64,000 nt of DNA. Source: Subtercola vilae. GTDB lineage: Bacteria; Actinomycetota; Actinomycetes; Actinomycetales; Microbacteriaceae. This document shows, in pieces, positions 18,905-28,606 of this stretch; position 1 is the first letter of the stretch; the number at the start of each line of letters is the position of its first letter. The notes under the pieces are model-generated. The model ran no database searches, had not been told where the DNA came from, and saw only the letters and a program-made list of their open reading frames with translations. The position numbers and the translations under genes were made by a program. The stretch spans positions 62,001 to 126,000 of the forward strand of contig NZ_QYRT01000009.1 of the NCBI RefSeq assembly GCF_004923255.1. Reading direction: 5' to 3'.

Positions 18905-20008
18905 ATGCCTCGAATCGCGGGAGTCGCCGCAGCGTTCCCCCCTCATTCCTATCCGCAAGCAGAGATCACTGAGCTGCTCGGCCCGATCATCACTAATGAC
19001 GCCAGCAAACGGTTGTTACTGAACCGGCTGCACCAGAACAGCAAGGTGGCGTCGCGGCACCTTGTCATGCCGTACGAGTGGTATCGCGACAGCTCGTTGA
19101 ACTTCACGTTGACAAACAACATCTTCATCGGTGCGGCCGTCGACCTGGCCGAAGAAGCGGTCGTGAGCGCCCTGGCAAAGGCCTCTTTGCAGGCAACTGA
19201 CATCGATTACGTCATCTTCACGTCGGTGACGGGCATCTCGGCTCCGTCGGTCGATGCCCTGCTCGCACTGAGGCTGGGGTTTCGTTCTGACGTGAAACGC
19301 GTGCCCATGTTCGGGCTCGGGTGCGTGGCCGGTGCAGCCGGCATTGCTCGTGCGAACGACTACCTGCTCGGGCATCCGAATGACGTGGCCTTACTCATCT
19401 CGGTCGAATTGTGCTCGCTCACCGTGCAGCGCGGCGACGACTCGATGGGCAATCTTGTCGCCAGCGGGCTCTTCGGCGACGGAGCAGCGGCCGTTCTGAT
19501 GGTCGGCAGCGACCGCGCCGAGACCATGGCCGTCACCGGGCCCGACGTGCTCGACTCGCGCAGCCGCCTGTACCCGGGAACGGAGGCGGTGCTCGGCTTC
19601 AACCCCGGCGAGAGCGGTTTTCGCATCGTGTTGACGGCGGGCGTCGCCGACGTCATCGATGAGCATTTCGACGACGATGTGGTGGGCTTTCTCACCGAGC
19701 ACGACCTCGCCGTGGCCGATATCGACGTCTGGATGGCCCACCCCGGTGGCCCCCGCGTGCTCGAATCGTTCTCGTCGGCACTGGGGTTGCCACAGGGTGC
19801 CCTCGATGTGAGCTGGCAGTCGATGGCGGCGAAGGGCAACATGTCGTCGGCCTCGATTCTGCACGTGCTCGCCGAGACTCTCAGCCTCGAACGGTTCGAT
19901 GAGGGTGGCCTCGGGCTGCTGTTCGCGCTGGGCCCGGGCGTCTGTGCCGAGATCGTGCTGCTGAAATGGCCGGAATCGCAGGCGCAGGAACAGCAGACGA
20001 GCGACTAG
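18905..20008 (+). CDS. Type III polyketide synthase (chalcone/stilbene synthase family)
   Basis: The 367-residue protein has the type III PKS catalytic triad: Cys140 (FGLGCVAGAAG), His279 (WMAHPGGPRV) and Asn312 (AAKGNMSSAS). The enzyme extends an acyl starter with malonyl-CoA and cyclises the chain. The next two genes encode an ICMT-like methyltransferase and an FAD hydroxylase, the gene set of Streptomyces srsABC, which makes alkylresorcinol-derived phenolic lipids. An alkylresorcinol or alkylpyrone product built on a fatty-acyl starter is therefore likely, but the ring type is inference. The TAG overlaps the GTG of the next gene. Confidence 0.95.
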   Translation: MPRIAGVAAAFPPHSYPQAEITELLGPIITNDASKRLLLNRLHQNSKVASRHLVMPYEWYRDSSLNFTLTNNIFIGAAVDLAEEAVVSALAKASLQATDIDYVIFTSVTGISAPSVDALLALRLGFRSDVKRVPMFGLGCVAGAAGIARANDYLLGHPNDVALLISVELCSLTVQRGDDSMGNLVASGLFGDGAAAVLMVGSDRAETMAVTGPDVLDSRSRLYPGTEAVLGFNPGESGFRIVLTAGVADVIDEHFDDDVVGFLTEHDLAVADIDVWMAHPGGPRVLESFSSALGLPQGALDVSWQSMAAKGNMSSASILHVLAETLSLERFDEGGLGLLFALGPGVCAEIVLLKWPESQAQEQQTSD

Positions 20009-22990: not shown

Positions 22991-23995
22991 TCAGGCCAGT
23001 CGGCTGGCCGGCGAGGTGGTCTTCGCCGGGTCGCGCTCGACGATGTCGCCCAACGCCTCGTCGATGGCGGTGAGCACGGCGGCCTCGAGCTTCACTCCGG
23101 CGGCCGCCACGTTCGACGCGATCTGCTCGGGTTTGGATGCCCCGATGATGGCCGACGCCACGTTGGGGTTCTGCAGCACCCACGCCACCGCGAGCTGCGC
23201 CATGGTGAGCCCCACCTCATCGGCGATGGGCTGCAGTTTCTGCACCCGCTCGAGGGTCTCGTCGCGCAGCCAGTTCTTGATCATCTCGTCGCCACCTTTG
23301 CTGTCGGTGGCGCGTGAGCCCTCGGGAACAGGCGCGCCCGGCTTGTACTTGCCGGTCAGCACACCCTGCGCCACAGGTGACCAGACGACCTGCGAGATGC
23401 CGAGTTCTTCTGAGGCGGGAACCACGTCGCTCTCGATGACGCGCCAGAGCATCGAGTACTGCGGCTGGTTCGAGATGAGCTGAAAACCGAGCTTCGAGGC
23501 GAGGGCGGAGGCCTCGCGCAGCTGCGGCGCCGTCCACTCGCTCACGCCGATGTACAGCGCCTTGCCCGCCCGCACGATGTCGGCGAACGCTGTCATCGTC
23601 TCTTCGAGCGGGGTCTCGTAGTCGTAGCGGTGGGCCTGGTAGAGGTCGACGTAGTCGGTGCGCAGGCGCTTCAGCGAGCCGTCGATCGATTCGAAGATGT
23701 GCTTGCGCGACAGACCGGTGTCGTTGTGCCCCTTCGGGCCGGTGGGAAAGTACACCTTGGTGAAGATCTCGACCGACGCACGGCGCTCGTTCTTCAGCGC
23801 CTTGCCGAGCACCTCTTCTGCCACGGTGTTCGCGTAGGCGTCTGCGGTGTCGAATGTGGTGATGCCCGCTTCGAGCGCGGCCCGCACGCTGAGCTTGGCG
23901 ATGTCATTCTCAACCTGCGAACCGTGCGTGAGCCAGTTGCCGTAGGTGATTTCTGAAACCTTGAGTCCGCTGTTGCCGAGATACCTGAAGTCCAT
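22991..23995 (-). CDS. Aldo/keto reductase (AKR, Kv-beta-like)
   Basis: This is a 334-residue TIM-barrel NADPH-dependent oxidoreductase. The catalytic tetrad is visible: Asp and Tyr in TFDTADAYANTVAEEVLG, Lys in EIFTKV, and His in LYQAHRYD. The cofactor end has SAIIGASKPEQIASNV. N-terminal MDFRYLGNSGLKVSEITYGNW is typical of the Kv-beta/AKR6-like group. The substrate is unknown. Confidence 0.95.
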   Translation of the reverse strand: MDFRYLGNSGLKVSEITYGNWLTHGSQVENDIAKLSVRAALEAGITTFDTADAYANTVAEEVLGKALKNERRASVEIFTKVYFPTGPKGHNDTGLSRKHIFESIDGSLKRLRTDYVDLYQAHRYDYETPLEETMTAFADIVRAGKALYIGVSEWTAPQLREASALASKLGFQLISNQPQYSMLWRVIESDVVPASEELGISQVVWSPVAQGVLTGKYKPGAPVPEGSRATDSKGGDEMIKNWLRDETLERVQKLQPIADEVGLTMAQLAVAWVLQNPNVASAIIGASKPEQIASNVAAAGVKLEAAVLTAIDEALGDIVERDPAKTTSPASRLA

Positions 23996-24013: not shown

Positions 24014-26857
24014 TCAACGGCCGAGCCCCATGCGGGCGATGCCCAGCAGTGATTCTCCGGGGAGAAAAGCGCGGGTCAGTGCCAGTGCGATCTTCGGCAG
24101 ATCGCCCTCGTCGCGAAACAGCAGGCTCATGCGTTCGTAGCGCGGGTTGAACTTGGTCTTGAAGTTGTGCAGCGACTGAAAACCGTAGAGCGGTTCGAGC
24201 GCGGTGCCGAGCGAGTCGAGTACGGCGTCGATGCCCGTGGGCTGGTAGTCGGCCCCGTGCGCGAGGGGCGCTCCCGAGAGCGAGACGAACAGGGCGCCCT
24301 CGGCCTGAAATGCCAGGCACGACGACGCGATGAGAAACTCCATCACCAGCTTGAACCCGTCGTCACGCCGGCGCATCAGGTCGAGGGTCCAGCCGCGAAT
24401 CGTGCCGTCGGCGCCATATACCGGCAACCACGAGAGCACTCCGTGCACCGTTCCCGACTCGTCCAGCGCCAGCGCGGTCTTCACGTGTGGGTCGAGCGCC
24501 TCGTCGACGCCACCCAGCGTGAACCCCATCTCGGGCAGCGCTTTGTCGCCCACCCATTCCTCAGAGATGGCGCGCACCTGCGACACGACAGCCCACGGTT
24601 CGTCAGCCAGCGCGGTCATGCGAAAACTGATGTTCTCGCGCTCGGCTCTGTTCAGCGCCGACCGGATGCCCTGCCATTTCTTTCCCGTCATCTCGAGCGT
24701 GGGCAGGTCGATGATGGTGTCTTCCGCGACCTGCAGGTTTGCCCAATCGGTGGGTGCGGCATCCAGTACCGTGTCAGACACCGAGAAGAGACACGGCGCC
24801 AACCCGATGCGCTCGCACTCGGCCACGAACTCCACGATGGTCTGTGCGAGCTTCTCGGGTGGCCCAACAGGGTCACCGAGGGCGATGGCCACGCCGGAGT
24901 GGCGCTGGTAGGCCACGAAACTCTCGCCATCGGCCGTGATGAAATACGAGTTGGCGGGCCACATGGTCATCCACGACAGGGTTCCGCCGCCGTCGGTGGT
25001 GAGAATCTCGAGCGGGCTCGCGGCGGCCGTGGCATTGCGCACGACCCGTCTCGACCGGCGAAGCGGCACCCGGTATGCGCGGTGCCCGAGCAGAAAAATG
25101 ACGAGCAGGGCGATCCAGAGCGCCGAGTTGGCCATGGCCGTGAAGAGGTCGGCAGGAAAGTCGAGGGCGACGATGGCGTAGATGGCGAGCCCCACGAACT
25201 CGAGCACGTTCAGGGCGCCCAGAATGACGCCGAGAACCCACGGCAACCGATGGCCGAGGCGGATGCCGTTCGCGATGAACGCGATGATGATGACGTCGAC
25301 GGCGACATCGATCCACACGCTCGTGTCAGAGGTCGTGGCCCGCAGAGAGTCGTCGGTGGGAAAGAGCGTTCCGATGACTTCGACCGCCGCCAGAATGACC
25401 AGGCTGGCGAACGCGAGGATGCGCCACTCCCGTGCGCTCGGACGCCCGGCGGGATGCGCCCGGTCGAGTACAAACGGAGCAACCAGCATCACGACGGCGA
25501 CACCCAGGAAGTGTTCGAGGTCGGCGAGAGTGCCGAGGTAGATCAGAGAGACCGTTACATACGCGAGCAGGGCGAACCGCAGACGCAGCCGCCATGGCGC
25601 ACGCACGGTGATGAGCGCGGCGGCCAGGCACGCCAGCACCCCGCCCGACGGCCCTACGTCGTAGTGCGAGGCCAGGTCGGCCGCCCAGGCGCTGTCGAAC
25701 GAGCGCGCCGCCAGCAGCACGAAGAGCGTGCCAGAGACGGCGGCGATCTGGCCGCCGGCGAAGATGCCGAATGCGCGCAGCGTTCCGAACTTCACTTCGG
25801 CCCAGCCCACTGCCACGACGATGCCGATCAGAATGAGGGCGTACTGAATGGGAACCTGCGACAAGAACGTGCCCGTGATCAGCGTGTACCAGTGCCCGTC
25901 GAGAAACGACGGAACCCCGTAGGCCACATCGTGGTACCAGCTGCGGCGTGCAATCGGGCTCCACAGGGCTCCGGTCGCGAGGGCAACCACCACAAAAGCG
26001 CCGAGCAGCCCGGCGGTGAACGGGGTGCGCCTGGCGGCCCGGGCGAGCGGGGCGAACACGGTGGTGACGGCCGACCGGATGCCCCGCAGCGGCTTCTCGC
26101 CCGAGTGCATGCCGGCGGCGCTCGCGAGCGGGCTGAGGCTGCCGTCGGGCTCGAACAGATCGGCCATTTCGAGGGGCGCGGGGGTGGTATCGGAATCGGG
26201 TGTGCTGCCGTCGGCACTCCCGGCTGCACCAACGGCAGTTGTCGACGAGCCCGCTGCGGCGGCTGCCGCCGTGTTTCGCCGGTACACCACGGTGATCGCC
26301 ACCACCACGATCGCCACCGCCACGGCGACGAGCGCGATCCAACTGAATTGGTGGATGATCGCCACCGCGGCCCGCCCCAGGGAGTAGACGATGGTGGTTA
26401 CGGCCCCGGCCCAGAGCACTGCGCCGGTGGCATTCGCGGCGAGGAAGCGGCGGTAGGGCATCCGGAGCGTACCGGCGAGAGGCCCGACGAGAATGCGCAG
26501 GAACGCGACGAACCGCCCCCCGACGACAGCCCACGCGCCCCAGCGGTTCATGCCGGCGATGGCGCGGTGAATCTGCTCGGCGCCGAACTGTTTCGGAAAT
26601 CTGCGCGCGCCGACCGTGAGCAGCCGAACACCGAACCGCCGCCCGATCAGGTACCCGATGGAGTCGCCGAGCACCGCGCCGATGACGGCCGAGGTAGCGA
26701 CGAACCACGGTGAGACGTGCCCGTCGATCGAAAGCAGGGTGGCGGCGATGAGAACCGTTTCGCCCGGCAGCGGAATTCCGATGCTTTCGACTGCCACGAA
26801 GAAGGCCACCACGAGTAGTACGGCAAGCGGGGGAATCGTGGCCAGCCATGCGATCAT
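24014..26857 (-). CDS. DedA / rhomboid-like / DUF2156 (MprF-type transferase) fusion protein
   Basis: This is one 947-residue protein in three parts. Residues 1-195 are a DedA/SNARE-associated membrane domain (VESIGIPLPGETVL, GDSIGYLIGRRFG, GGRFVAFLRILVGPLAGTLRMPYRRF). Residues about 196-275 are a low-complexity linker. Residues about 280-600 are a polytopic rhomboid-like domain with WYTLITGTFLSQ, GPSGG (Ser404) and LEHFLG (His449). Residues about 612-930 are a soluble DUF2156 domain as in MprF/LysX lysyl-phosphatidylglycerol synthases (FITADGESFVAYQRHSGVAIALGDPVG, KKWQGIRSALNRAER, FVSLSGAPLAH, SLHNFKTKFNPRYE). MprF transfers an amino acid from aminoacyl-tRNA to phosphatidylglycerol, and DedA proteins are linked to lipid flipping. 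A synthesis-plus-flip machine is plausible but unproven. The ATG at 26857 has AAGGGG 7 bases upstream. Confidence 0.88.
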   Translation of the reverse strand: MIAWLATIPPLAVLLVVAFFVAVESIGIPLPGETVLIAATLLSIDGHVSPWFVATSAVIGAVLGDSIGYLIGRRFGVRLLTVGARRFPKQFGAEQIHRAIAGMNRWGAWAVVGGRFVAFLRILVGPLAGTLRMPYRRFLAANATGAVLWAGAVTTIVYSLGRAAVAIIHQFSWIALVAVAVAIVVVAITVVYRRNTAAAAAAGSSTTAVGAAGSADGSTPDSDTTPAPLEMADLFEPDGSLSPLASAAGMHSGEKPLRGIRSAVTTVFAPLARAARRTPFTAGLLGAFVVVALATGALWSPIARRSWYHDVAYGVPSFLDGHWYTLITGTFLSQVPIQYALILIGIVVAVGWAEVKFGTLRAFGIFAGGQIAAVSGTLFVLLAARSFDSAWAADLASHYDVGPSGGVLACLAAALITVRAPWRLRLRFALLAYVTVSLIYLGTLADLEHFLGVAVVMLVAPFVLDRAHPAGRPSAREWRILAFASLVILAAVEVIGTLFPTDDSLRATTSDTSVWIDVAVDVIIIAFIANGIRLGHRLPWVLGVILGALNVLEFVGLAIYAIVALDFPADLFTAMANSALWIALLVIFLLGHRAYRVPLRRSRRVVRNATAAASPLEILTTDGGGTLSWMTMWPANSYFITADGESFVAYQRHSGVAIALGDPVGPPEKLAQTIVEFVAECERIGLAPCLFSVSDTVLDAAPTDWANLQVAEDTIIDLPTLEMTGKKWQGIRSALNRAERENISFRMTALADEPWAVVSQVRAISEEWVGDKALPEMGFTLGGVDEALDPHVKTALALDESGTVHGVLSWLPVYGADGTIRGWTLDLMRRRDDGFKLVMEFLIASSCLAFQAEGALFVSLSGAPLAHGADYQPTGIDAVLDSLGTALEPLYGFQSLHNFKTKFNPRYERMSLLFRDEGDLPKIALALTRAFLPGESLLGIARMGLGR

Positions 26858-26968
26858 GCCCACACCCCTTTGGTTCTCTGCGGAGCGCGACTCCCCGTGG
26901 GTTTCCATGATAGGTCGGTGGCGCTGCGAGCAGCAGCACCCGGGCAGCCGGGCTGCGAGAATGGAGTC

Positions 26969-28606
<1,638 letters not shown>

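Follow-up and report, generated by a model that had tools for sequence, protein, structure and literature searches.

The DNA stretch analysed here (64,000 nucleotides of the Subtercola vilae genome, referred to as the window) carries on its minus strand an ORF of 947 codons, which runs from an ATG at position 26857 to a stop codon ending at position 24014. The original prediction had read this ORF as one chain that joins a DedA part, a rhomboid-like part and an MprF-type synthetase part, and this three-part architecture was borne out, with Pfam recognizing VTT_dom and LPG_synthase_C and with profile comparison identifying the middle as rhomboid-like (Table 1). The two residues singled out at that time, i.e., Ser404 within a GPSGG motif and His449, were numbered correctly.

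An aldo/keto reductase gene (22991–23995, minus strand) starts 18 bases past the stop codon of the fusion gene on the same strand, and is also adjacent to it in L007 (Subtercola sp. Z020); co-transcription of both genes is possible. On the other side lies a divergent ABC-F gene (26870–28606, plus strand), which at 379.3 bits narrowly misses the cut-off of 380 set for a ribosomal-protection-like family. A ketosynthase/type III PKS-like gene (18905–20008, plus strand) had DpgA as its best NCBIfam match, at a score below the cut-off (160.7 vs. 425); overlapping ORFs of the same orientation follow it. A promoter scan found none, and one terminator-like site was present within the fusion ORF, which is fewer than in shuffled sequences.

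Table 1. Parts and individual residues of the fusion ORF, with their positions in the window.
Feature	Coordinates	Strand	Basis
Whole ORF, 947 aa (DedA, rhomboid-like, approximately four TM, LPG synthetase)	24014..26857	−	ORF, Pfam, alignment
DedA/VTT part, residues 1–195	26273..26857	−	Pfam VTT_dom 30–158; alignment with 21 solo DedAs
Linker, residues 196–271, weakly conserved	26045..26272	−	Alignment, dN/dS comparison
Region with rhomboid-derived domain, residues 272–470	25448..26044	−	hhalign 97.1% over its columns 45–148; GlpG match of core model, Z-score 13.2
Ser404, rhomboid catalytic Ser column	25646..25648	−	Profile comparison, joint alignment
His449, rhomboid catalytic His column	25511..25513	−	Joint alignment
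Asp400	25658..25660	−	In 68/68 rows keeping Ser and His, 3/25 others
Glu448	25514..25516	−	In 63/68 rows keeping Ser and His, 0/25 others
Approximately four helices ahead of synthetase, residues 471–612	25022..25447	−	Low-confidence model; NCBIfam MprF match begins at residue 542
LPG_synthase_C domain, residues 621–910	24128..24997	−	Pfam 226.8 bits; motif alignment

The start position of the fusion ORF was found in an alignment to coincide with GTG or ATG starts of its relatives, and an AAAGGGG sequence precedes the ATG by 7 nt. The closest named relatives stem from Subtercola strains and MAGs (70–75% identity over residues 4–947), followed by fusion homologues from Pseudoclavibacter (48–49% identity). 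Across six pairs, the DedA part displayed dN/dS values of 0.06–0.25, indicating purifying selection in the same frame; these values resembled those of the remaining membrane parts and for the most part exceeded those of the synthetase. The frame is unbroken in 10 out of 11 Subtercola congeners and is divided over two ORFs in the 11th (L023), so that a chance fusion can be dismissed, and a survey of the domain order retrieved the fusion in 11/11 congeners and in five other Microbacteriaceae genera. Judged by these comparisons, the fusion is genuine and is predicted to be translated as one protein. An internal start past the DedA part, an objection that the original prediction had raised against itself, would suit both the weakly conserved linker between DedA and the rest and the existence of DedA-less relatives, but is highly improbable given the conserved start position, the ribosome-binding-like AAAGGGG sequence in the window and the in-frame purifying selection on the DedA part.

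In L007 and L023, which have equal match statistics and are probably one genome, a frameshift, which may reflect slippage or an assembly error, divides the fusion gene. Their downstream ORF becomes recognizable past an NS/TS repeat within the linker.

Profile searches placed the N-terminal VTT_dom (PF09335; 64.4 bits, cut-off 33.9) and the C-terminal LPG_synthase_C (PF09924; 226.8 bits, cut-off 27.5) well within their Pfam families, and found nothing above cut-off in the middle of the window protein, including Rhomboid (PF01694) and Rhomboid_2 (PF20401); the middle was recognized as rhomboid by profile–profile comparison. The synthetase motifs were intact in an alignment with solved synthetases (e.g., 4v36, 7f47, 6lvf and 9goe), in agreement with the predicted aminoacyl-phospholipid transferase of the MprF type. 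MprF itself is a bifunctional lysyl/alanyl-phosphatidylglycerol synthetase-flippase (NF033480; PF03706 plus PF09924), and the window protein scored 161.3 bits against the cut-off of 600 for this NCBIfam equivalog. A full-length model built from nine sequences reached a pLDDT of 45.6 and a pTM of 0.27, and its helix list lends weak support to four helices following the rhomboid-derived domain.

The ancestry of the middle domain emerged from a comparison (via hhalign) with 30 actinobacterial rhomboids, which returned a probability of 97.1% (E-value of 7e-11 over 96 columns) and placed Ser404 on the serine of the rhomboid GASG motif, while the DedA, four-TM and synthetase parts, serving as controls, received probabilities of 0.3–0.7% against the same rhomboids. 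Moreover, some relatives matched Pfam families directly: a Pseudoclavibacter relative (L009; 25.4 bits) and a long-TM relative (28.6 bits) exceeded the cut-off of 22.6 for Rhomboid, and a DedA-less relative (L152) barely surpassed that for Rhomboid_2 (27.1 vs. 27). When the core (residues 272–470) was modeled (pLDDT of 59.5), GlpG and iRhoms occupied ranks 1–21 among its structural matches with Z-scores of 10.4–13.2 (next row 6.5), bearing in mind that the structure aligner was run on Foldseek's own candidates and that Z-scores under approximately 13 can be common in helical bundles. Foldseek itself yielded a best E-value of 1.7 for this model, which is not significant. Since the model is weak, the Foldseek result non-significant, and a Z-score of approximately 13 within reach of helical bundles, the fold match was taken as support and not as proof. 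In this weak model, Ser404 starts a helix and His449 is located in the last helix. The original prediction had made itself dependent on a rhomboid fold around both residues, and a rhomboid origin of this region is now well supported by the profile comparison, the Pfam match of L009 and the weak fold match with GlpG and iRhoms.

A profile of the middle region was run over 349 Microbacteriaceae genomes, with the best few candidates per genome being scored, and gave matches at 1e-8 in 90 of them. The 106 matches listed comprise 60 strong ones (at least 217 bits, near full length) and 46 weak ones (at most 74 bits). The strong matches represent a compact family of approximately 700 aa (i.e., rhomboid-derived domain, four TM and synthetase), with an N-terminal DedA in 24 of the 60 (one of which is split), distributed over six genera. 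The weak matches that were examined belong to a long-TM family resembling L001, a paralogue within the window genome. In a class-wide search, 28 out of 394 genomes matched, and among the 20 strong matches a DedA profile recognized DedA in the window's own protein only. As delineated by these searches, the compact family of rhomboid–synthetase proteins, with and without DedA, is new here. In another family of the class, the order is reversed (L161:1-2049, plus strand), with the synthetase coming first and GPSGG and DVEH both retained in the rhomboid-like domain behind it.

Seven fusions from one genus (L085–L091) stood out by scoring 125–156 bits on the family synthetase profile, compared with 400 to 688 bits for the other intact DedA fusions. 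Two of them (L085 and L087) have a synthetase without the catalytic motifs that nevertheless remains above the Pfam cut-off of 27.5 (37.2 and 50.5 bits, respectively). The synthetase of this group is degraded and possibly dead. Ser and His are kept in all seven, and the DedA motifs in both members examined; five of the seven genomes hold a second, DedA-less compact copy (L094 and L096–L099).

In a joint alignment, Ser404 and His449 share the catalytic columns of 30 aligned rhomboids (i.e., the GxSG serine and the TM6 histidine), with the Ser–His spacing being 45 in 67/68 family rows and 46 in 26/30 rhomboids. Since these rhomboids were chosen by their Ser/His pattern, it is the position on the catalytic columns, rather than the conservation among rhomboids, that is informative. 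Among 73 distinct compact rows, 67 have Ser, 68 have His and 66 have both, with Ser alone in L112, His alone in L149 and L150, and neither in L117, L120, L122 and L151. All 26 distinct DedA-fused rows keep Asp, Ser and His, and have E (23 rows) or Q (3 rows) in the Glu448 column. A link between Ser/His and the DedA fusion was considered as well, and rejected because most DedA-less compact members also keep the pair.

The 68 rows with both Ser and His (66 compact rows, L161 and L162) were compared with 25 other family rows. Asp400 and Glu448 occurred in 68/68 and 63/68 of the former vs. 3/25 and 0/25 of the latter, a contrast that is partly due to shared descent since most of the 25 other rows form one clade. 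In the aligned rhomboids, the Asp400 column is mostly occupied by T, V or A, and the Glu448 column by A or G. Joint loss of Asp, Ser and His happened at least two times inside the compact family (L117/L120/L122 and L151), and at least four lineages are without Ser, His or both; a test based on phylogenetically independent pairs had too few Ser/His co-loss events for adequate power. As far as the alignments indicate, the retention or loss of Asp400, Ser404, Glu448 and His449 is largely joint.

Other hallmarks of rhomboids have changed. The HxxxN motif of TM2 corresponds to Q338/I342 in the window protein, and its His occurs in 16/26 fused and 6/47 other compact rows, its Asn in 1/26 and 0/47, respectively. 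The WR motif of loop 1 corresponds to Y324-T325, and among the 68 rows with Ser and His the Trp is found in 65 and a Thr replaces the Arg in 64. These changes argue against a working rhomboid site. Ser404 and His449 rank 27th and 24th in conservation among 206 core columns (44 representatives), and these modest ranks, together with the losses in at least four lineages, argue against a strict catalytic need.

With regard to the DedA part, an alignment with 21 solo DedAs matched E24, E33, R115 and R121 to the four residues that passages in PMC10127716 and PMC7818093 describe as essential in E. coli DedA proteins (E39, D51, R130 and R136), an acidic pair and an arginine pair located in two re-entrant hairpins. 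Both arginines are present in 13 of 14 aligned fusions. The L024 fusion has lost both and has kept Ser/His and the synthetase, and the L119 fusion has a Gln in place of Glu33, so that DedA transport may not be needed. Since Ser/His persists both in L024 and in L085–L091, the rhomboid site is common to all fusions examined. In a tree, twelve fused DedAs form one clade (support of 99/99), apart from the 21 solo DedAs. The fused type scored 219–291 bits in the 5 out of 30 searched genomes that have the fusion and at most 92.3 bits in the other matches listed, and was not found as a stand-alone protein among these 30 genomes. The single clade and the 30-genome search point to a single origin of the fused DedA, followed by losses, although the family trees, which have long branches and in which the presence of DedA changes three times in one and two times in another, leave room for more than one gain. 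No DedA structure came up when the DedA part was searched by sequence against the PDB.

The original prediction had also proposed that the DedA module could be the flippase, which is plausible. The MprF flippase domain PF03706 matched neither the window protein nor anything else in the window genome. On the other hand, PF03706 was above cut-off in just 1/11 Subtercola congeners and, among 29 other family genomes, in 2/9 of those with the fusion and in 2/20 of those with DedA-less members. With such counts, lack of this flippase is not peculiar to genomes with the fusion, and because the family is mostly devoid of it, DedA cannot serve as a general explanation. A role of DedA in simply making up for a missing MprF flippase is thus weakened.

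The DedA part could alternatively be an undecaprenyl-phosphate flippase or a regulator, and not an aminoacyl-lipid translocator. DedA-less relatives exist, and the subfamily that carries these E/D and R/R residues is believed, according to a passage in PMC10127716, to flip undecaprenyl phosphate. This alternative is a real possibility but not the favored one, as the fused DedAs constitute one clade with none standing alone in 30 genomes, as expected for a dedicated partner, and as PMC11980842 contains a remark on DedA–synthetase fusions. This remark, which cites Roney and Rudner 2023, concerns a DedA domain fused to the MprF synthetase, whereas other DedA fusions (i.e., with rhodanese, PAP2 and oxidoreductase domains) are mentioned in the consulted part of PMC10127716. 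By title or abstract start, no rhomboid–MprF or rhomboid–synthetase protein was found in the open-licence literature, and the combination of rhomboid and lysyltransferase had no match in its full texts. The DedA–synthetase fusion is already in print, and a mention of the rhomboid core was not found in the portion of the open-licence literature covered. Periplasmic hydrolases of lysyl-phosphatidylglycerol, such as AcvB, are described in the excerpts consulted.

Building on the anatomy, the homologies, the conservation and co-loss of the site and the single clade of fused DedAs, we tentatively favor a membrane protein for lipid aminoacylation, with other membrane modules standing in for the customary MprF flippase domain and all of its activities being predicted. 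The cytosolic C-terminal domain would transfer an amino acid from aminoacyl-tRNA onto a lipid (phosphatidylglycerol or diacylglycerol) in the inner leaflet, and the DedA domain would help to carry the aminoacyl lipid across the membrane. The rhomboid-derived domain would provide a re-tooled polar site (Asp400, Ser404, Glu448 and His449) for binding or converting a membrane substrate; the likeliest role of this site, which would not depend on the synthetase, is that of a serine hydrolase or of a lipid-handling site. More specifically, a rhomboid protease domain with Asp400 and Glu448 added around Ser404/His449 and without the oxyanion Asn might have become an intramembrane lipid-ester hydrolase or transferase, which in the outer leaflet would trim the aminoacyl group or pass it on, although we consider this specific form improbable. 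If it were true, one polypeptide would make, move and edit charged lipids, and the editing part would have outlived the synthetase in the genus of L085–L091.

The same site also allows other readings. iRhoms and derlins are inactive rhomboid-derived membrane scaffolds, and the domain could likewise be a pseudo-enzyme in which Ser, His, Asp and Glu are kept for packing or binding only. That reading fits the replaced HxxxN Asn and WR Arg, the sister long-TM family that mostly lacks Ser/His yet has the synthetase, and the compact lineages living without the pair; it is harder to reconcile with the persistence of the site beside a degraded synthetase and with Asp400 and Glu448 tracking the Ser/His rows, unlike plain decay (even if shared descent explains part of this), so that it is a real but not a favored possibility. 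The start of a helix at Ser404 and the location of His449 in the last helix of the weak model, both on catalytic columns, would be in keeping with a genuine rhomboid protease that cuts a membrane protein while tethered to a lipid-modifying enzyme, but this seems very unlikely from the sequences, considering the same two replacements, the separate standard rhomboid in the window genome, and the fusion to two lipid modules, which points to lipids. We similarly give little credit to Asp400, Glu448 and His449 forming a site for metal binding or proton coupling that powers lipid transport, with Ser404 being incidental: two acidic residues and a His are indeed retained together, but Ser is about as strictly kept as His (67 and 68 of the 73 compact rows), and we know of no such metal site in rhomboids.

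Returning to the lipid-aminoacylation reading, the exchangeable membrane modules on one synthetase constitute natural variants (i.e., with or without DedA, with or without Ser/His, or with a degraded synthetase). To our knowledge, little is known about how aminoacylated lipids are moved and their levels reset beyond MprF and a few periplasmic hydrolases, and these natural variants render both processes testable. Activity of the site would mean a rhomboid-derived enzyme with a non-protein substrate, of which we know no example.

Finally, the window protein can be set against known systems. It shares with MprF the motifs of the C-terminal synthetase domain, but lacks the PF03706 flippase domain and has DedA and a rhomboid-derived domain instead. 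Compared with the E. coli rhomboid protease GlpG (PF01694), the profile match, the fold of the weak model, and the columns and spacing of the catalytic Ser and His are alike, whereas the window family has other residues in place of the HxxxN Asn and the WR Arg, adds Asp400 and Glu448, and has its rhomboid-derived domain situated inside a lipid enzyme. Rhomboid_2 is reached by the relative L152 and not by the window protein itself. The long-TM paralogue L001 of the same genome equally combines a rhomboid-like N-terminus with a synthetase, but differs in that no DedA was found, in its longer inter-domain stretch and in the loss of both Ser and His. The published DedA–MprF synthetase fusions likewise have DedA and synthetase on one chain and may be the same proteins, although the passage concerned (PMC11980842) mentions no rhomboid core, which the window protein does have.
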